A model generated the notes under the pieces. That model was not told the DNA's origin. It searched no databases and saw only the letters and a program-made list of their open reading frames with translations. Below are positions 2,130 through 30,015 of a DNA stretch of 64,000 nt, one piece after another. The stretch is from a virus, in the IMG/VR virus record IMGVR_UViG_3300032323_002905, positions 1-64,000 of that record. The stretch is one strand, 5' to 3'. Each line of letters opens with the position of its first letter. Positions within the stretch are counted from its first letter, which is position 1. The translations under genes and the position numbers were made by a program.

Positions 2130-3344
2130 TTACTTCATTAAATATGAAACCAACTCTTTCTTTAACATTAAGCTTTTAAACTTATTAGCATCACCATTAT
2201 AGATTGACTTTACAATATGGTATTTTAAATCAACTGCAAATATATCTCCTATAATAATCTCTTTGATTCGATTAATTAAACTATCATCTATCTTATTATC
2301 ACTAGCATAAAATAAACTATAATTGATTAATCGGGTTGCTAATGTTGAGGCAATATCTGCTCTATAATTTTTGTCAGATCCAATACATCCTTTTAATTCA
2401 CCTAAAATATATTTTTCATTGTCATGAAATAATACATCATGTATTTTTACTAATTTATCTAATTTATTATTGATAAACATTGTGAACATACTTGCGAATT
2501 CAACACCAACACTACCTTCTCCAATCATTTGAATTAATGGTAATGACTTATCAAATGATTCTAATGATGATATTGAATTAAAAAACATTGATGTACTTCT
2601 TGGATTGACATTTTTGTTAATTAGTTCAGGATGTAGTAACATAAAATTGATACATCTGTTATCTAATTGATTTTGTTCAGCCCATTCAGCCCAACATGAA
2701 ACATCATATTTTAAATTAACTGAGATAAATCGTGTTTTTTGAGCGGAGTCAATTGAGTTAACAATATAATCATCTGTATCAGGATTACTTGTTAATATGA
2801 TATGCCAATCTTTAGGTAGTTTCCAGCTAATGTATTCTTGTCTATCAATTAACTCCATTACAGCTTGTATGAATCTCATATCAGCTCTATTCCAGTCATC
2901 TAATAATAGAATTCCACCTTTTGTTTTACCACTAATCCACTCAGGTGGACAATAACTCATTCGATTTTTACCTGTAAATTTATACCCTAATTTAGTGTAT
3001 TCATCTACTGCGTGTTCATCAATCCAAACACATTTCTCTTCCTCGTTTTGACACACTTCAAATTGTCTGATTGGAAAACCTACTATGTCTCCTAATTCTT
3101 CGATTTGAGCTAAATTTAACTTAACAAAATCTACATTCAACTCTTTTGATAATTGAATAATTGATGATGTTTTTCCAATACCACTTTCTCCTACTACTTC
3201 GACACTCACTACTGGTTTGCCTTGTTCCTGAAGAAATCGATTGTTACTAACAATGTGATTTAGGAATGATTTTAAATCCTTTGGATTTAGGGACACTTGA
3301 TTTGATGATGAAGTCTCCGTACTTTTTTTAGAACCTTTTGCCAT
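2130..3344 (-). CDS. MoxR-like AAA+ ATPase
   Basis: An AAA+ ATPase of the MoxR/AAA_5 type, 404 aa. Visible motifs are Walker A GESGIGKT (about residues 52-59), Walker B GGILLLDD (about 143-150), sensor 1 TSNPD (about 185-189), and a likely arginine finger in QKTRF near 205. MoxR ATPases usually act with a VWA protein as chaperones that remodel or insert cofactors into other complexes. Here a VWA protein with a metallopeptidase-like motif lies 0.3 kb upstream in the same direction, which supports a working pair. A class A promoter lies 28 bases before the ATG, suggesting early expression. The target in a phage is unknown. Confidence 0.85.
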   Translation of the reverse strand: MAKGSKKSTETSSSNQVSLNPKDLKSFLNHIVSNNRFLQEQGKPVVSVEVVGESGIGKTSSIIQLSKELNVDFVKLNLAQIEELGDIVGFPIRQFEVCQNEEEKCVWIDEHAVDEYTKLGYKFTGKNRMSYCPPEWISGKTKGGILLLDDWNRADMRFIQAVMELIDRQEYISWKLPKDWHIILTSNPDTDDYIVNSIDSAQKTRFISVNLKYDVSCWAEWAEQNQLDNRCINFMLLHPELINKNVNPRSTSMFFNSISSLESFDKSLPLIQMIGEGSVGVEFASMFTMFINNKLDKLVKIHDVLFHDNEKYILGELKGCIGSDKNYRADIASTLATRLINYSLFYASDNKIDDSLINRIKEIIIGDIFAVDLKYHIVKSIYNGDANKFKSLMLKKELVSYLMK

Positions 3345-20113: not shown

Positions 20114-22453
20114 TTATGTTACTTTGTATGTACCCATACCAAATGCGGTACCTCCTCTAGTAGTGTCAAATAATGCAACTCCTTCTTTATTTAATATAGC
20201 ATTTAATGTGGCGTTCATTTTTTCTAAATGATTTAACATAGGAATATCAGTTGATGATGGAGAAGATGGACTTCTTCCTAAATTAGTACCGGCCACAACT
20301 GTGTCATTAGGATCTAAACTATATGTACCTTTTTTACCTGATACCATTAAACCACCGTCTGGAGATATTTGAGCATCATCAACACTTTTTACATTAGAAT
20401 AAATAGCAGCTCCTATTGTTCCTGCTATCGCTAAACCCGCTAAAGCAGCAATTGGGTTACCAATAGCCTTAGCTACAGCTTGTGCAACTAAAATAGTTAA
20501 TTTATTTTTTTCTACCATAGCTTGTGCTACAGCAGCTACTGTTGATTGTCTTTGAGCCGCAATACTAGCAATCTGTATTCCTTTTATTAACAAATATGTA
20601 CCAGCTATACCACCTAATAATTTACCCATGTCGGCTAACGCCATATTTCCTGTATGGAATAAATCAACTATTGCTTTAATACCTTCTCCTAAAAATTTAA
20701 TTGGGATTAAAATAACATTTAAAGCAGCAGTAATACCAGGAAGTATAACATTAAGTAAATCCATAAAAGGAGATAGTATTTGTAATATTGGTTCAGCTAA
20801 TGATACAAAAACTTCTCTTAATTTTTCTATTGTATTATTATATCGTTCAGCTATTGATTGTTGAGCAAATTGATTCGCTAATTGATCATTACCTAATTGT
20901 TTTTTAGCTTTTTCTAAACCTACTTGTTTAACTAAATTATTAAATTTTTCTTGAGCAGTAGCACCTTCAGTTTCTGATAAAGCTGCTAATGCTTCTCTAT
21001 CCATTAATGATTGAGCTAATTCATTTCGTTCCATTCCTGCTGCTTTAGCAATGGCTTCTTGTTGAATTCTATTCATGTTAGCAAAATCAGCAGATGTACC
21101 TACTTGTTTTGCAATTTCTTCCGCTGCTCCTGCAATATCGTTATTTAAAGCTAAAAATCTTGCTCTTTCAAAGTTAAGATTTTTACCAGTTAATAATTCA
21201 GCTTCTAATTCATTTGTTATTGAACTTTCAAAATTTAATAATCCTGAAGCTATTTTTTCAGCTTGTTCTAAATTTAAACCAAATTGTTTTGCTTTTACTA
21301 CAGCCTCAGCTACCGCAGCTGCACTACCACCTAATGATAATTTAATAGCTGCTGATGTTTTAGATACTTCTTTTAAAACATCTTTTTCATTAACTACTAA
21401 TTTATTTCGAGAAGCATAAGCTTCAGCAGCTCCTAATATTTCAGATGTATTGTCTTTTAATGTTTTACCATTAACTAAAGATATTTTTTCAATACCTATT
21501 AATTCATCATTAGTATAACCAGCTTGTTCTCTTAATTTAGTAAAAGTAATTAAATCTTTTTCATTTAGTATAGCGTTGGAACCTAATGATTTACCAACAG
21601 CTATTACACTTTCATTTAATCCTTTAGTATTAACCGCAGCATCACCTGTTAAAGCTGCAGTTTGTGTTAATTGAGTATTTAATGCTAACGCATCACTATA
21701 ACTCATATTAAATGCTTTAGCTGTATCTCCAGCTAATTTATCTGTTTTACTAAGAGCGTTAACTAATTCTTTAAAAGCTAAAGTAACTAACGCTGCTGGG
21801 TCTACAGAATTTGTAATATTTTTTGTTATTTCTTTAGTTAAATGTCTAGAAGCTTCAAGGTTACTTATATTTCCTTCATTTTTAGCTACCATTTCTTTAG
21901 TAGAAGCTAATGCTTTACTTAAACCTAACTGGGTATCTAAAGCGCCTAAACCAGCTTTTTGTAATCCTTTACTAAGACCTTCAGTAGCTGCTCCTAAACT
22001 ACCTATTGATTTATCAATTTTATCAGCTTCCGCGGCTTGAGATTCTAAAGCTTTTACTATTTCAGCTTCATATGCTTGAGTTTTAGCTAACTCTTCATTT
22101 AAATGTTTCGTATTTCCTAAATTATTACGGGAAGCTATTTCTAATTGTTTTTCAATAGATTGAAGCTTAATTTTTCTAGCTTCAATTTGTTTATTAACTT
22201 CAGCTCTAGTTAATTCACCTTTAGTTAATTTGGTTAGATTTTTTTCAATTACATCTGTAGACTTAGCTAATGAATTTAATCCACCTTGTATATCTCGAGT
22301 TAATGTTTTACTAAATGTACTAGTATTATTTAAAGCGTCTCTAAAGATGTCACCAACTTGACTAGAAATAGACCTTAAAGCATCTTCAACTATAATTGAA
22401 GTTTCTTTAGCGGTCTGTTTTATATTTTCTTTATCGTTTTTATTTAAAGCCAT
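20114..22453 (-). CDS. Tail tape measure protein
   Basis: 779 aa. The long helical N-terminal half has coiled-coil character (TRAEVNKQIEARKIKLQSIE and similar). Hydrophobic stretches lie near residues 565-590 and 615-640, and an Ala/Gly-rich segment (IAALAGLAIAGTIGAA) lies near 670. This layout is typical of tape measure proteins, which fix tail length and may cross the membrane during DNA entry. It follows the tube, gp26-like and gp51-position genes, as T4 gp29 does. A class B element and a terminator-like hairpin separate it from the upstream gene. Confidence 0.85.
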   Translation of the reverse strand: MALNKNDKENIKQTAKETSIIVEDALRSISSQVGDIFRDALNNTSTFSKTLTRDIQGGLNSLAKSTDVIEKNLTKLTKGELTRAEVNKQIEARKIKLQSIEKQLEIASRNNLGNTKHLNEELAKTQAYEAEIVKALESQAAEADKIDKSIGSLGAATEGLSKGLQKAGLGALDTQLGLSKALASTKEMVAKNEGNISNLEASRHLTKEITKNITNSVDPAALVTLAFKELVNALSKTDKLAGDTAKAFNMSYSDALALNTQLTQTAALTGDAAVNTKGLNESVIAVGKSLGSNAILNEKDLITFTKLREQAGYTNDELIGIEKISLVNGKTLKDNTSEILGAAEAYASRNKLVVNEKDVLKEVSKTSAAIKLSLGGSAAAVAEAVVKAKQFGLNLEQAEKIASGLLNFESSITNELEAELLTGKNLNFERARFLALNNDIAGAAEEIAKQVGTSADFANMNRIQQEAIAKAAGMERNELAQSLMDREALAALSETEGATAQEKFNNLVKQVGLEKAKKQLGNDQLANQFAQQSIAERYNNTIEKLREVFVSLAEPILQILSPFMDLLNVILPGITAALNVILIPIKFLGEGIKAIVDLFHTGNMALADMGKLLGGIAGTYLLIKGIQIASIAAQRQSTVAAVAQAMVEKNKLTILVAQAVAKAIGNPIAALAGLAIAGTIGAAIYSNVKSVDDAQISPDGGLMVSGKKGTYSLDPNDTVVAGTNLGRSPSSPSSTDIPMLNHLEKMNATLNAILNKEGVALFDTTRGGTAFGMGTYKVT

Positions 22454-22476: not shown

Positions 22477-22503
22477 AAAGGCACCTATTTTCTAGATGCC
22501 TTT
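22477..22503 (-). terminator. Terminator-like hairpin before the tape measure gene
   Basis: AAAGGCA (22503-22497) pairs with TGCCTTT (22483-22477) around a 13-base loop and overlaps the stop of the 109-aa gene. There is no long U-tract, so it may only attenuate. Confidence 0.35.
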
Positions 22504-22814
22504 GTACTATAAGTTGGTTGATTTGCTGATTGTAATTTTTGTTTAGCTGATTTAGGATCAGCAAAATCAATATTATTTTTGCCTTTTGAAGCATTTGTAT
22601 AAGCATCAGATTCTTTTTGTCTTTGATCTGCTATAAAGTTAAATGTTAATTTTCTTAACCAAATAGGCATTTCATATACAGTATGGAAATCATATCCACC
22701 ATTACCATAATAACATATATCATGGATAACTTTAAATAATTGAAATCTGTATTCGTTACTCAGGCCAAAAAAACGTAATAGTAATAGGAATGTTGATGAC
22801 CTCCGATTCACCAT
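22485..22814 (-). CDS. Tail assembly chaperone-like protein (T4 gp51 position), possibly made by frameshift
   Basis: 109 aa if started at ATG 22814. The meaningful part begins at RFFGLSNEYRFQLFKVIHD, continuing ICYYGNGGYDFHTVYEMPIW and LRKLTFNFI, a pattern I associate with small tail-assembly proteins just ahead of T4-type tape measures. The first ~14 residues (MVNRRSSTFLLLLR) are only a shadow of the gp26-like coding sequence, with which it overlaps by 59 bases. A T7 run in the overlap would allow a +1 (or -2) shift from the gp26-like frame, giving a fused product like lambda G/GT. Both production modes remain possible. Confidence 0.7.
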   Translation of the reverse strand: MVNRRSSTFLLLLRFFGLSNEYRFQLFKVIHDICYYGNGGYDFHTVYEMPIWLRKLTFNFIADQRQKESDAYTNASKGKNNIDFADPKSAKQKLQSANQPTYSTKASRK

Positions 22815-23496
22815 CTGAATTAATATAATTTGCTGTTAATTCAATATCTGGTTGTGTTTTTCTAAGATGTTCTCTAAACTCTTTAGAATCTCTAGCTAAT
22901 AAGTAATTATCAACAAATTCTCTAATTGTTTTTTTATCTGTATTTCCACCAACTGATAAAATCATATATTTTAATCTAGTTGATAATTCTGCAGATGAAT
23001 TTTTATCAATTTTTTTCAATCCATCTAATTCAGCTTGAACTTCTTTTTCATCTTTACCTGTTAATAACTTATATGTTATCTCAGTTTTTGAATGAGGAAA
23101 TGTATAGCTAAATGTATTTGTACCTGGAGTTAGTAATGATTCATCTAAATAGCGAGTTGGACATTCAGTTAAGTCTATTGTCACTATTTCATCTCCCATT
23201 TTAAAACTATAATCTTTACCGTATCCTAAAATACGAGCAGCAATCATAATAGCATTTTTATCACCTACAATTAAATCATCATAATTAATTTTAGATACAA
23301 TTAATGATTGTAATAATTTATCTAAAACTGTACCTTGTTTAATATAATTCTGGTTAGTTAATATATCCTCTTCTTTCGCCGTCATATATTTCATTTCGAC
23401 TTTACCACTTGATAACAGGTTATCTGCGGGGTATATTAAACCTTTTGATGGTAACTCTACCATTTCTGTTGGGAACTTAAATTTGTTATCTTCCAT
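22756..23496 (-). CDS. gp26: T4 gp26-like baseplate hub assembly protein
   Basis: 246 aa. The N-terminal MVELPSKGLIYPADNLLSSG, VEMKYMTAKEEDILTNQNYI and GTVLDKLL match the T4 gp26-type family (LPSkGxxYp...E.iLt). In T4 this protein is needed for baseplate hub assembly and is probably a chaperone. The middle contains DLTECPTRYLDE. The gene ends FFWPE with a T7 run just before the stop, where a shift would lead into the downstream 109-aa frame. It lies between the tail tube and tape measure genes. Confidence 0.8.
   Translation of the reverse strand: MEDNKFKFPTEMVELPSKGLIYPADNLLSSGKVEMKYMTAKEEDILTNQNYIKQGTVLDKLLQSLIVSKINYDDLIVGDKNAIMIAARILGYGKDYSFKMGDEIVTIDLTECPTRYLDESLLTPGTNTFSYTFPHSKTEITYKLLTGKDEKEVQAELDGLKKIDKNSSAELSTRLKYMILSVGGNTDKKTIREFVDNYLLARDSKEFREHLRKTQPDIELTANYINSDGESEVINIPITITFFWPE
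22767..22773 (-). other. Candidate programmed frameshift site (T7)
   Basis: In the gp26-like frame the codons read ACG TTT TTT TGG CCT GAG TAA. Skipping one T (+1, equal to -2) gives TTT TTT GGC CTG AGT and continues into the conserved part of the downstream frame. A -1 shift meets TGA at once. Confidence 0.45.
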
Positions 23497-23602: not shown

Positions 23603-24091
23603 TTAGAAATTTAAAATACAATAATCTGGTTGTACAGTTAATGTGATATTTTGAGCTGTTGATTCATTATCCCAATTGTAATCACCAAAGTTCGCATTTG
23701 TAATTAAAGCTCCTTTAATAATCCATTCTGAAACAATATCACCTACTGGTCCTAATACATCTAATGTTAAGTCTTTCTTATAGAAATCACTATAACCATC
23801 TCTACCAGTTACTGATTCGTGATGTAAACGTACCCATTCCATTACTGCTTGAGCACCTGAAGGAGTGATTGGGTCAAATAATGTCATTTGAATTTCACCC
23901 CATTTACTTTTACCTTTAACAAAACGTTGAACGTTAATGTGATTTAAAACTACTGAGTCTTGAGTTAAATTTACACCTGCAACTCCTTTAATAATATACG
24001 CTGGAATTCCATCCATGTATAAAATGAAACGGTTCTGTTGTTTCGGTTCGAACGCTGTGAAAAATATTTCGTTTGGATCTAATACTGCCAT
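23603..24091 (-). CDS. gp19: Tail tube protein (T4 gp19-like)
   Basis: 162 aa, close to T4 gp19 in length. It has NRFILYMDGIPAYIIKGV, a GKSKWGEIQMTLFDPI strand pair and YSDFYKKDLTLDVLGPVG, then WIIKGALITNANFGDYNW, the usual order for myovirus tube proteins. It stacks into the inner tail tube through which DNA passes. It lies just after the sheath gene, with its own class B element and a strong terminator, so it can be made in high amounts. Confidence 0.9.
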   Translation of the reverse strand: MAVLDPNEIFFTAFEPKQQNRFILYMDGIPAYIIKGVAGVNLTQDSVVLNHINVQRFVKGKSKWGEIQMTLFDPITPSGAQAVMEWVRLHHESVTGRDGYSDFYKKDLTLDVLGPVGDIVSEWIIKGALITNANFGDYNWDNESTAQNITLTVQPDYCILNF

Positions 24092-24140: not shown

Positions 24141-26141
24141 TTACGCTGGGAAAGTTGCTCCTGTAGGTAAGATGTTGAAATCTAAGTAAATAAATTCAGC
24201 TGTTCTTGTAGGTTGGATATAAATTTGTCCGATTAACTCATTTCTATCAATTACGTCTGCTGTATTATTTGTTTCATTCATAATTACTCTAAACGCAAAT
24301 AAACCTTGTTTTTGTTGAACTGATTCTAAGTATGGATTTACTTGTGATAAGAATGCATTTCTTGTTGCGATTGTATTTTGTTCAAATACTAATGTATTAG
24401 CAACTTGTGAAATGTAGTTCTTAAGAGCAATTAATAATCTTCTAACATTTACTCTATCTAAAGCTGATGCTTGAGTTTGTAATGTTTTCTGACCATATAC
24501 TACTGTACCTGTTCCAGGGAATGTAGCAATAGGATTTACTTTGTTTGTGTATAAAGTATCTCTAGAAGATTGAGGTAATTTTTGTTCTGCTCTAATTACT
24601 TGTAATCCACCTCTGTTAATACCAGCTGGTGCAAACCAAGGCTCAGCTACTGTATCATTGAATGCAAACACACCTGCCATTACTGTTGATGCTGGAACCC
24701 AAACATTCTTTCCTGTAGCAGGATCAATCATTTGAACCCAAGGCCAGTATGAAGCAGCATATGAAGTATTTCTTGAATTAGCTTGTGTTGTTACTGTTGA
24801 AATAGTAGTGTTATAAGGTACTAAATCTAATACAAATAAACTATCACCTCTTGTTTGAGTATTATTAATCATGTTTGTACACTGTGATGTGTATCCTGAG
24901 TTATATAATCCTGGAGCAAATAAGATATTAAATTTGTATTCATCTTGATTTGATAATAAGTCGATCATATTATCATAATCAGTACCTACTAAACCTTGTG
25001 TATTTGTACCATTGATAGTTTCGTAAAAATTAGCTCCACCTGCTACTTGTCCTACACCACCTGTAAATGAACCACTTGCATTAACTGGAATTGACGCTGT
25101 ATATTGTGGTTTAGCTACTCCTGTATTAGTAAAGTAATATGGAGTTGGAGTATTTACTGCTGATACTCTTACATAACGTGAAGCGTTAAAATAAGAACCA
25201 GATACTTCAATTTGATTTGTTGTTGGGTTATAATTTTGATCTTGATCTCCAATTACTCTTGAAATAAAATTAGGAGCAAATGGGTCTAATGATAATCCTG
25301 TCCAAGTTTCTAATACAATTGGATTATTTGTATTGTCATTACCTTGACGAATTAATAAACTAAATGTTCCAGATGCTGTATCAGCATTTGAAATTTGCCA
25401 TCTGATATTATCTGCTGTTCCTGAAGCTAATGAACCACTTACATCCATTGATGAAGAACTGTTCATAATAATACCTTCAGATAATGTAGTTAAAACAAAT
25501 GCTGGAGTAGTTGAATTTACAATATCTGCCGCTGCTAATGTTACAACTACATTACCAACAGTTCCAATTGAACCTGATAAGAATGTAAATGTTTCACCAA
25601 TAGCATATCCTGTTCCTGCTGTAGTAGCAGTAATACTAGTTACTAACGAGCCACTAGTTTTAGTTATACTAAATACTGCTCCTGATCCTGTTGCGCCTGA
25701 ATAGGTATAACCACTACCTGTAGCTAAACTACCTGTGGTACCTGTTACTGAAGCTGTTGAGTTAGTAGAAATGTTACTTAAAGCAGAACCTGTAGTTAAT
25801 ACTCCACTTTCTACATTATTTAAAATTGCTGTACTAGTTGCTGGTGTCCAAGTATTACTTGCACTTACTACTCTAGCTACTAATAATGATGTACCACCAT
25901 TATTAAAATAATTATAAGCAGCAATTGAAGTGAAAAATGATACATTATCACTACCACTTTGGAATCCTGCACCAAATTTATTTACGTAATCGCTGTATGA
26001 GGTAACAACAGTTGGAATTTCAACGGGACCTAAAACTGTAGGACCTATAATTGCTGCACCTACGTTAACTGGTTGTTGTGTGATAAACGATGAATCGTTT
26101 TCTCTTGCTAATACACCAGGGGAAATTAATGTTTCTGCCAT
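24141..26141 (-). CDS. gp18: Tail sheath protein (T4 gp18-like)
   Basis: 666 aa, similar to T4 gp18 (659 aa). The N-terminus has SPGVLARENDSSFITQQP, VNVGAAIIGPTVLGPVEIP and SYSDYVNKFGAG, the classic sheath start. The C-terminus has NVRRLLIALKNYISQVANTL and FEQNTIATRNAFLSQVNPYL, the conserved inner domain that contacts the tube. A Ser/Thr/Gly-rich insert (about residues 110-200) forms the variable outer domain. The sheath contracts to drive the tube through the envelope. Confidence 0.95.
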   Translation of the reverse strand: MAETLISPGVLARENDSSFITQQPVNVGAAIIGPTVLGPVEIPTVVTSYSDYVNKFGAGFQSGSDNVSFFTSIAAYNYFNNGGTSLLVARVVSASNTWTPATSTAILNNVESGVLTTGSALSNISTNSTASVTGTTGSLATGSGYTYSGATGSGAVFSITKTSGSLVTSITATTAGTGYAIGETFTFLSGSIGTVGNVVVTLAAADIVNSTTPAFVLTTLSEGIIMNSSSSMDVSGSLASGTADNIRWQISNADTASGTFSLLIRQGNDNTNNPIVLETWTGLSLDPFAPNFISRVIGDQDQNYNPTTNQIEVSGSYFNASRYVRVSAVNTPTPYYFTNTGVAKPQYTASIPVNASGSFTGGVGQVAGGANFYETINGTNTQGLVGTDYDNMIDLLSNQDEYKFNILFAPGLYNSGYTSQCTNMINNTQTRGDSLFVLDLVPYNTTISTVTTQANSRNTSYAASYWPWVQMIDPATGKNVWVPASTVMAGVFAFNDTVAEPWFAPAGINRGGLQVIRAEQKLPQSSRDTLYTNKVNPIATFPGTGTVVYGQKTLQTQASALDRVNVRRLLIALKNYISQVANTLVFEQNTIATRNAFLSQVNPYLESVQQKQGLFAFRVIMNETNNTADVIDRNELIGQIYIQPTRTAEFIYLDFNILPTGATFPA

Positions 26142-26469: not shown

Positions 26470-29400
26470 TTATGCTCCACCTGTAGTTACTGTAGTACTT
26501 AGAGAGTATATTATACCTTGTACTTCTGTATGGAACCAAATAGTAGTTGTAGGTGCTGTTCCTGAATTACTTAAACGTAGGGCAAATACACCATTTGAAT
26601 CTGTTACCGCATGATTAATTGAGCCTGTTGTATTAACCACAACTTGACTTCCTGATGCTATAGTGTATGTTTGAGCGGCGATAGCTGAAGCTGCTCCAAA
26701 TTGAGATGTAGATGTCCACCAATGTATTAATTGGCGTGGATTGCTTAAAGCTGTGCCATCTACTTCTAAAAATGAAGCCGATATCACTCGTGTTGTTGTT
26801 GTTCCTGTTGCTGATAAACTACAACTTACAAATCCATCATTTACAATATTTCTTATAGGTCCTGTCACTATTAATGAACCTGTAATTATAGTATTACCAT
26901 TAACATCTAATGTAGCGTTTGGAGTTGTGGTTTTATTTATTGCTACTCTACTTCCTGTAGTGTATAATTGAACATTTCCATCACCGTCTGATAAAACCAC
27001 TGTATTAGTTAAATTAGAAGTACCTGCGTAAGCACCTATAATAGTGTTTTTATTTCCTGTTGTGATTTGAGTTCCTGCATTATATCCTATAAGTGTATTA
27101 TTATTTCCTGTAGTTAAAATATATCCTGCTATATTTCCTAATGCTGTATTATATGTTCCTGTTGAAGCTGATACTAAAGCTTGATATCCTATAGCTGTAT
27201 TTCCTAAACCAGTGTTATTAGTTGGGGTAGCTCCTCCTCTTAAAGCTTCAAATCCTATAGCTGTATTATCACTAGAAGTCATAAAATACATTGAATACCA
27301 ACCTACTGCTGTGTTATTAGATGTAGCTGTACTTGATCTTAAAGCATTTGTTCCTATACCAATATTAAAACTTCCAGATGTATTAGAAAGCATGGGTGCT
27401 ACACCTATAGCTATATTATCATTTCCTACTGAATTGTTTTGTAATGCTCCTGAACCTAAAGCTGTGTTACCATCTCCAATAGTGTTTGCATTCAATGCTG
27501 CATTTCCTATTGCTGTATTAGCTAAGCCACCGGCGGCGTTATTAGTAAGAGTATTTTTACCAAAAGCTGTATTTCCATCTACTGCTCCTCCTCCTCTACT
27601 AGCTGTTATACCATTTATATATAAAGCAGAACCATCAAAGGTTAAATTAGATTCTACAGTCGCGTTAGGCGCAGTTCCATTTAATGTTATAACACCATTA
27701 TCTGTTGTTCCTGTTAAAGTTAAAGTTCCAGCTGTACCTGAAAGACCTGAACGACCTGATAAACCTGATAGGCCTGAAATGCCTGATAAACCTGAAATAC
27801 CTGATAAACCAGAGATACCTGAAATGCCTGATAAACCTGAAATACCAGAAATACCTGATAAACCAGAGATACCTGATAAACCTGAAATCCCTGAAGTTCC
27901 TTGTTCACCCATAGGTCCAAATCCCACATTAGTGATACCTTCTCCACTTGTGTCATAATTTGAAGAAAAATATAATGGATTACCTATTGATCTAGCTACA
28001 GTTCTTTCTAAATTACTATTTTTGTAATATCTTATATTATAACCATCATATGTTATATAAAAAATATCACTTGTAGTATAAGATAAAGCTGCGCCTACTG
28101 TTGAGCCTAATTCATATATATAAACATCTCCTCCACTATTAGTAAATTGAAATCCATAATTTATAGTGTTTGGATTATTACTAGATGGTGTTTCAGTTAA
28201 ACCAAAAACTGTATCTATGTTACCATTTGTAGCTTTAGCATTTACATAAGCTCCTCTTATATAGCCTTGAGTTGAAGATACATAAGGTTGATAACTACTA
28301 CCTCCTGTTTGTATAAATGTTGAAGAATCAACTCCATAAGAAGTATTTGAAAATATAGGTGTAAATACTGGTATGCCTATAAGACCTGAAATACCTGATA
28401 ATCCTTCTAAACCTGAGATACCACTTATGCCTGAAAGTCCTGAGATACCTGATAAACCTGAGATACCACTTATACCTGAAAGTCCTGAGATACCTGATAA
28501 ACCTGAGATACCACTTATGCCTGATAAACCTGATATTCCTGAAATACCGCTTGTGCCTGATAAACCTGAAATTCCTGAAATGCCTGAAAGACCTGATATA
28601 CCACTTAAGCCTGATATACCTGATAAACCTGATATTCCTGAAATACCTGAAGTACCACTTAAACCTGATATACCTGATATACCGCTTAAACCTGATGAGC
28701 CACTTAAGCCACTTAAACCTGAAATACCTGAAATACCACTTGTACCTGATAAACCTGAAATACCACTAATTCCACTTAATCCTGAGGTACCTAATAGACC
28801 TGATATGCCACTTAAACCTGAAATACCGCTTAGACCTGAAATTCCTGAAATACCACTTAAACCAGAGATACCTGATAAACTTAAATTAGTTCTATAAGCT
28901 ATATTACCTGAAGTATCAGAAACTAATATTCTATCTTCAGTTGTACCTGCTACTAAAGTAGGTAAGGTTAAACTTCCTGAAAGTGAAGTACTACCTGTTA
29001 CTTGTAAACTACCTGATATTTTAGTAGTTCCTATTAATAATTGAATATCATCTGTAGCATCACCAAATTGATTAGAACCAGATGAATATATTACAGATGC
29101 TGTTTCGTATATTGTATTTAAATATGTTATACTACCAGTTCCATTAACTGTTAAATTACCTGTTACTGTTAATGTTGTTCCATCATAAGTAAAATTAGCT
29201 GAACCTGCTGGGTTATTGGATCCATCTTTATAAACTACCTGATTAGCTGAACCAGCTACAGGTCCTATTATTCCTGAAAGACCTGAAATACCGCTTAGGC
29301 CTGATATACCACTTAAACCTGAAATACCACTTAGACCTGATATACCTGATAAGCCACTTAAACCAGAAATACCAGATAATCCTGATGTACCACTTAGGCC

Positions 29401-30015
29401 TGAGATACCTGAGATGCCACTTAAACCTGAGATACCTGATATGCCACTTAGACCAGATATACCTGATATACCACTTAGACCAGACACACCACTCAAACCA
29501 GAAATACCTAATGTACCACTTAAACCTGATAAACCAGATAAACCACTTAAACCTGATAAACCACTTAAACCTGATAAACCAGAAATACCACTTAGACCAG
29601 AAATACCAGAAATACCACTTAGGCCAGAGATACCAGATAGGCCACTTAAACCTGAACGACCAGATAAACCACTAATCCCTGATAATCCACTTATGCCTGA
29701 AATACCGGATAAACCACTTATACCTGAGATACCACTTAAACCTGAAATACCTGAAGTACCGCTCAAACCTGAAACAGTAGGTGTAATTGCATATGATGCT
29801 GTTACAGCATAAGATGAACTTAAAGCTTGTATAGCATAAGAAGAAGTAGCAGTTAATGCACCACTTATATCTACTGAACCTGTAACTGTTAAGGAACCAC
29901 TTATAGTTATATCGTAAGCCGCGTTACCGGTTAAGGCATCAATTGATTGAGATATTTGTTGAGCTTGTACGGTTGCACCTGTTACTATGCCCGCATTAGA
30001 CAGTACTTGAGCCAT
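26470..30015 (-). CDS. Collagen-like tail fibre protein, 1181 aa, with YadA-like head repeats
   Basis: Predicted long trimeric fibre. Residues 1-80 form a beta N-domain (attachment). Three blocks of G-L-S/G-I-S/G-T-S triplets follow (coded by 29265-29775, 28380-28880 and 27720-27905), broken by small globular modules with FTYDGTTLTVTGNLTVNG and similar. After the last block comes a run of NTAIG/NTALG/NIAIG-type repeats (about residues 815-1005), resembling the left-handed beta-roll head of trimeric YadA adhesins, then a C-terminal domain of unknown type. There is no proline in the triplets, unlike ordinary collagen. It probably binds the host surface. It lies next to glycosyltransferase genes. 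Confidence 0.88.
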   Translation of the reverse strand: MAQVLSNAGIVTGATVQAQQISQSIDALTGNAAYDITISGSLTVTGSVDISGALTATSSYAIQALSSSYAVTASYAITPTVSGLSGTSGISGLSGISGISGLSGISGISGLSGISGLSGRSGLSGLSGISGLSGISGISGLSGISGLSGLSGLSGLSGLSGLSGLSGTLGISGLSGVSGLSGISGISGLSGISGISGLSGISGISGLSGTSGLSGISGLSGLSGISGLSGISGLSGISGLSGISGLSGIIGPVAGSANQVVYKDGSNNPAGSANFTYDGTTLTVTGNLTVNGTGSITYLNTIYETASVIYSSGSNQFGDATDDIQLLIGTTKISGSLQVTGSTSLSGSLTLPTLVAGTTEDRILVSDTSGNIAYRTNLSLSGISGLSGISGISGLSGISGLSGISGLLGTSGLSGISGISGLSGTSGISGISGLSGLSGSSGLSGISGISGLSGTSGISGISGLSGISGLSGISGLSGISGISGLSGTSGISGISGLSGISGISGLSGISGLSGISGISGLSGISGLSGISGISGLEGLSGISGLIGIPVFTPIFSNTSYGVDSSTFIQTGGSSYQPYVSSTQGYIRGAYVNAKATNGNIDTVFGLTETPSSNNPNTINYGFQFTNSGGDVYIYELGSTVGAALSYTTSDIFYITYDGYNIRYYKNSNLERTVARSIGNPLYFSSNYDTSGEGITNVGFGPMGEQGTSGISGLSGISGLSGISGISGLSGISGISGLSGISGLSGISGLSGLSGRSGLSGTAGTLTLTGTTDNGVITLNGTAPNATVESNLTFDGSALYINGITASRGGGAVDGNTAFGKNTLTNNAAGGLANTAIGNAALNANTIGDGNTALGSGALQNNSVGNDNIAIGVAPMLSNTSGSFNIGIGTNALRSSTATSNNTAVGWYSMYFMTSSDNTAIGFEALRGGATPTNNTGLGNTAIGYQALVSASTGTYNTALGNIAGYILTTGNNNTLIGYNAGTQITTGNKNTIIGAYAGTSNLTNTVVLSDGDGNVQLYTTGSRVAINKTTTPNATLDVNGNTIITGSLIVTGPIRNIVNDGFVSCSLSATGTTTTRVISASFLEVDGTALSNPRQLIHWWTSTSQFGAASAIAAQTYTIASGSQVVVNTTGSINHAVTDSNGVFALRLSNSGTAPTTTIWFHTEVQGIIYSLSTTVTTGGA
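27720..27905 (-). repeat. Collagen-like triplet repeat, block 3 of the 1181-aa fibre
   Basis: About 186 bases of 9-base units coding G-L-S and G-I-S triplets. It joins a globular domain to the YadA-like repeat region. Confidence 0.85.
28380..28880 (-). repeat. Collagen-like triplet repeat, block 2 of the 1181-aa fibre
   Basis: About 500 bases of tandem 9-base units, mostly G-L-S and G-I-S with some G-T-S. One G-L-E triplet breaks the run near its C-terminal end. Confidence 0.85.
29265..29775 (-). repeat. Collagen-like triplet repeat, block 1 of the 1181-aa fibre
   Basis: About 510 bases of tandem units, almost all G-L-S/G-I-S/G-R-S, near the N-terminal end of the fibre. Confidence 0.85.

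Follow-up and report, generated by a model that had tools for sequence, protein, structure and literature searches.

A probable +1 ribosomal frameshift in the T4-type tail assembly chaperone gene of an IMG/VR virus and its relatives

Two overlapping frames on the minus strand of the window (the whole stretch of 64,000 nucleotides analysed, positions 1 to 64,000 of the IMG/VR record IMGVR_UViG_3300032323_002905) very probably constitute one tail assembly chaperone gene, in which a programmed +1 ribosomal frameshift would give the long form of the protein. We believe, at the level of sequence comparison, that the frameshift is real, that it is most likely a +1 and a ribosomal event, and that its product is the long form of a chaperone of the T4 type. 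Earlier descriptions hold tail chaperone frameshifting to be widely conserved yet lacking in T4, and the frameshifts known in phage tail genes are mostly in the backward direction. The kind of gene, a G/GT-type chaperone made by frameshift just ahead of the tape measure, is known; a +1 site of this kind that depends on neither a stop codon nor a Shine-Dalgarno (SD) element is new as far as the literature consulted shows.

The locus in the window

The features considered are as follows.

22756..23496, minus strand: gp26-like frame-0 ORF, the short tail assembly chaperone (G / TAC-N), 246 aa, ending ...ITITFFWPE before the stop
22762..22773, minus strand: putative shift site TTT TTT TGG CCT, based on relatives, column conservation and an independent T-domain search
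22485..22766, minus strand: +1-frame extension (T domain), GLSNEYRFQLFKVIHDICYYGNGGYDFHTVYEMPIWLRK..., with its stop at 22485-22487; all site-bearing relatives keep it
22488..23496, minus strand: predicted frameshift product G-T (TAC-NC), 336 aa without the stop, a single chain that takes a +1 step at the shift site
22812..22814, minus strand: ATG codon that opens the downstream ORF, taken as accidental in view of the start-less relatives
20114..22453, minus strand: next gene downstream, 779 aa, presumed tape-measure protein by position and size
23603..24091, minus strand: upstream gene, tail tube protein (PHROG_4542, E 1.2e-22)
24141..26141, minus strand: tail sheath protein (PHROG_23, E 4.8e-73)

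The 3' end of the gp26-like ORF reads ATT ACT ATT ACG TTT TTT TGG CCT GAG TAA on the minus strand, with ACG at 22776-22774, the seven T's (T7) at 22773-22767 and TAA at 22758-22756. The +1 ORF opens with ATG at 22814, runs to the stop at 22485 (109 aa, a 59-nt overlap with frame 0) and carries FFGLSNEYRF...MPIWLRK, also given as FFGLSNEYRFQLFKVIHDICYYGNGGYDFHTVYEMPIWLRK; the -1 frame at the site runs into TGA (CC TGA G). The sequence-only reading had described the same end of the gp26-like frame, FFGLSNEYRF in the +1 frame, the 59-base overlap and the TGA met by a -1 step, and all of this holds, coordinates included. It had also placed a chaperone ahead of the tape measure, which agrees with the gene order (tube, chaperone, tape measure) and with the match to the T4 gp26/gp51 family presented below. 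The order is shared by the relatives with an annotated tape measure; a tail tape measure is annotated at the equivalent place in Flavobacterium phage immuto and Bacillus phage SP-15, and the 779-aa protein of the window had no family match. The search for tRNA genes in the window found none.

Near the sheath gene, positions 26470-30015 hold an ORF of 1181 aa with SGLSGISG-type (Gly-Leu/Ile-Ser) triplet repeats, collagen-like in character, which is probably a fibre or adhesin; the long antisense ORFs there mirror its repeats.

The window is AT-rich and contains 61 T7 runs over both strands, fewer than shuffled sequences give; just 3 of the 61 lie on the minus strand, which is the coding strand here. 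The 12-mer TTTYTTTGGCCT occurs once in the window (0.06 expected). Judged from these counts, a T7 run alone is not unusual, and the site is regarded as more than chance because it is kept in relatives.

The site and the T domain in relatives

Relatives were gathered by searching with the frame-0 protein, which yielded 161 loci with TTY YTT T(GG/AC) CCT, 128 of them distinct. The site is retained down to about 42% protein identity, and the family consensus is NNS TTY YTT T(GG/AC) CCT. Among the 128, the variants are TTTTTTTGGCCT (77), TTTTTTTACCCT (35), TTTCTTTGGCCT (12), TTCTTTTGGCCT (3) and TTCTTTTACCCT (1), and the slippery YUU U is present in every one (128/128). After the site, the +1 frame continues with FF(G/T)L and then the T domain; frame 0 runs only a few codons further to its stop. 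Two isolates bear the site, Flavobacterium phage immuto (as TTT CTT TGG) and Microcystis phage Mel-JY01.

Since relatives found through frame 0 could be biased by their selection, a control search relied on nothing but the T domain. Its queries were one T domain and a smaller alignment, the alignment of T domains being too divergent for scanning. In 116 of the 117 distinct loci obtained, a long frame-0 ORF ends in the same site and the T domain is +1 to it. A frameshift at the T run, as initially suggested, thus finds support in both searches. The exception (L303, positions 1480-1520) reads AAT TTC TTC TGG CCT TCC CGA TAG: its YTTT is lost, and the T domain has moved to -1, next to A AAT TTC, which could be a -1 heptamer. 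This is an apparent switch of frameshift direction, although a single case, which could be an assembly error.

Column conservation was estimated over 61 representatives less than 80% identical. Upstream of the site the third position of frame 0 is the least informative (0.25 bits vs 0.61 and 0.78), and downstream it is the third position of the +1 frame (0.46 bits vs 0.70 and 0.97), so that the codon-position pattern switches from frame 0 to +1 at the site and conservation of the +1 frame starts only past it. The bases inside the site are invariant except for the variants listed. T7 is unbroken in 51 of the 61 representatives and interrupted by a C in the other 10 (TTTCTTT in 7, TTCTTTT in 3). 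The base ahead of the run (22774 in the window), a synonymous third codon position, is G or C in 58/61 and never T; G/C makes up 38% at free third positions elsewhere (binomial P ~5e-21). A G or C there may serve to prevent -1 slipping, or may make the adjacent codon-anticodon pair stronger.

The frameshifted domain is overlooked in public annotation: in immuto (L001:5735-5961) and SP-15 (L174:3229-3428) no more than a short piece of it is called, as a hypothetical protein. Databases label the extension a separate hypothetical protein, or record only part of it.

The nature of the shift

We presume that most ribosomes would stay in frame 0 and stop a few codons past the site, producing the short form G (...FFWPE). 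In some of them the P-site tRNA (Phe or Leu) would re-pair one base further on, from YUU to the overlapping UUU, with UGG (or UAC) in the A site; reading would resume at GGC CUG... and give the long form G-T, whose C-terminal domain is helical. If the analogy with lambda gpG/gpGT applies, the short form would coat the tape measure, and the T part would recruit tube subunits. The sequences show the arrangement of the frames, its conservation and the homology to T4 gp26/gp51; from these we infer the tRNA slip, its efficiency and the role in assembly.

The sequence-only reading had regarded the seven T's as the slip element. Seven are not needed: because 10 of the 61 representatives have a C in the run, the essential element, as far as the alignment tells, is a YTT codon followed by T. 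Re-pairing from YTT to TTT is possible in every site variant of the clade, while in the TTC TTT T variants the first codon could not re-pair (TTC to TCT).

The direction had been left as +1 or -2. A -2 movement of the ribosome, as in phage Mu, leads to a frame identical to that of +1, and re-pairing of a single tRNA by -2 is perfect on T7 and no worse than +1 on TTTCTTT. At the TTC TTT T sites, however, it would put the Phe anticodon on UCU, with a mismatch in the middle, whereas +1 puts it on UUU; and with G or C at position -1 in 58/61, a two-tRNA -2 slip cannot re-pair. We therefore consider -2 unlikely and retain the +1 shift. The two predict different junction peptides, ...ITITFFGLSNEYR for +1 vs ...ITITFFFGLSNEYR for -2; the tryptic junction peptide predicted for the phage of the window is TQPDIELTANYINSDGESEVINIPITITFFGLSNEYR after a +1 shift and longer by one F after -2.

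Still less probable is slippage of the RNA polymerase on T7, which would yield mRNAs with 6 (or 9) U's and the frame restored. Such slippage is established for long T runs, and the run is unbroken in most representatives; but T7 is short for efficient slippage, and the 10 representatives with TTTCTTT or TTCTTTT, where no run exceeds four, have the same arrangement of frames.

The least probable reading, a separate downstream gene started at ATG 22814 or GTG 22811 by translational coupling with an incidental T run, would suit the window and its close kin (L005-L012), which are open for 21 codons upstream with both ATG and GTG, but we find it hardly tenable, as 62 of the 128 site-bearing relatives lack ATG, GTG and TTG all the way from the upstream stop of the +1 frame to the site, often with a stop three codons ahead of FFGL, 73 of the 117 loci of the T-domain search have no start codon in the T frame, and a nearly invariant site precedes the first conserved +1 codons.

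With 73/117 loci start-less, we judge the window ATG an accidental start, in line with the earlier remark that it gives a meaningless N-terminus, though in this one phage, which does have an ATG in the +1 frame, independent initiation may occur. A frameshift would be contradicted by relatives that lack the T run and whose downstream frame has a clear start of its own; they were looked for together with retention of the run, and the result was the opposite.

As to what could make the ribosome pause in the +1 shift, the column profile of the 61 representatives has no SD-like AGGGGG block just upstream of the site; near the site, alifold found no consensus RNA structure, and the mean single-sequence z is -0.58. 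Tryptophan occurs elsewhere in the frame-0 proteins about once per 1000 residues, and TGG follows YTT in 50 of the 61 representatives. With neither an A-site stop nor an SD-like element, the rare Trp codon is possibly the source of the pause. A wider proposal is made only tentatively: that hundreds of aquatic T4-type phages carry a +1 motif independent of stop codon and SD (NNS TTY YTT T(GG/AC) CCT), that an A-site Trp codon, nearly absent elsewhere in the gene, gives the pause, and that the same family has changed the shift direction between +1 and -1 or uses two genes, as T4 does. If the Trp codon did cause the pause, the host supply of Trp-tRNA would set the ratio of short to long chaperone. 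The site would also offer a ready +1 system in Bacteroidetes phages without a stop codon or Shine-Dalgarno element.

The chaperone family and known systems

The frame-0 protein matches PHROG_150 (baseplate hub, E 2.9e-9). PF12322 (T4_baseplate) is matched by 32 of 44 family members (best E 5.6e-19); the window protein alone scores 20.2-22.7 bits against it, just below the 24.5-bit cut-off. The G and T parts were folded separately. The AF2 model of the frame-0 protein (pLDDT 90.9) has Foldseek matches to T4-type baseplate-hub proteins and none significant among solved structures, where the HK97 tail assembly chaperone (HK97 gp13, 2ob9_B) has the top target TM-score of the matches listed (TMt 0.46) at a non-significant E of 3.9. 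The fold search with the T domain and the PDB profile search gave no match.

Single sequences of T4 gp26 and gp51 gave no signal against the profile of the close family; it appeared once deep relatives and gp26/gp51 alignments were added. In hhalign, the alignment of the fused profile to T4-family gp51 spans the entire length, T domain included (prob. 90, score 51.7 vs 27.8 for the best of 60 column-shuffled controls), and that to T4 gp26 ends at the shift point (prob. 88, score 48.2 vs 23.4 for the control). The T domain alone aligns with gp51 weakly (23.8 vs 20.2 for the best shuffle). By these profile comparisons, the protein belongs to the T4 gp26/gp51 (PF12322) family of tail assembly chaperones.

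In the wider family, the T domain is in the +1 frame after TTT TTT C in Bacillus phage SP-15, TTT TTT A in Listeria phage LIS04, TTC TTT C in Streptococcus phage SagM-GXN1 and TTT C in LR756508; a slip in LIS04 or LR756508 could only be on the first TTT. It is in the -1 frame after T TTT TTC in LR756511 (a 595-kb uncultured phage; L176, around 3195-3211) and after T TTT TTT in Stenotrophomonas phage RAS14 (L177, around 3220-3283); these two and L303 are the only cases with the conserved downstream domain in -1. A family that would make the same protein by a +1 shift, by a -1 shift or, in T4, from two genes renders the evolution of recoding direction testable.

In T4 itself, gp26 corresponds to the part up to the shift and gp51 extends through the T domain; T4 has two separate genes for what the phage of the window would make from one gene with a frameshift. 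The gp26/gp51 proteins are reported to be the tail assembly chaperones of T4-like phages (Vladimirov et al. 2022, Virology 566:9-15, cited in both PMC10885494 and PMC12846349), and PMC10885494 cites the same work for chaperones present in these phages as one short copy and one longer, fused copy.

What the gene shares with lambda-type gpG/gpGT is a conserved, start-less second frame, reached through a slippery site close to where frame 0 ends. That system uses a programmed -1 shift (-2 in Mu) through a two-tRNA heptamer, whereas here the shift would be +1 with a slip on YUU U, and the chaperone of the window has no sequence similarity shown to the lambda-type proteins. The -1 heptamer type (X XXY YYZ) is not matched, the downstream domain being +1 in nearly every T-domain locus.

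The chaperone of Vandenendeviridae and Andersonviridae employs a -1 frameshift at a GTTTTT motif; poly-T -1 sites in chaperone genes of T4-like phages are mentioned in the same paper (PMC12846349). There too a poly-T site ends TAC-N, and TAC-NC reads on towards the tape measure; the difference is that the shift is -1, whereas in the clade of the window it would be +1 and the T domain is absent from the -1 frame.

In its presumed slip the site resembles prfB (RF2; CUU UGA, with UUUUUGA in some genomes), where a P-site YUU followed by U also slips +1 to UUU. The prfB slip sequence is almost always CTTT, and 21 genomes have poly-T (PMC12421855); in Bacteroidia, frameshifting in prfB is common (PMC8710568). 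In prfB, however, a stop codon occupies the A site and an SD-like AGGGGG lies upstream, whereas the family described here has UGG or UAC in the A site, its frame-0 stop a few codons later, and a column profile free of such a block.
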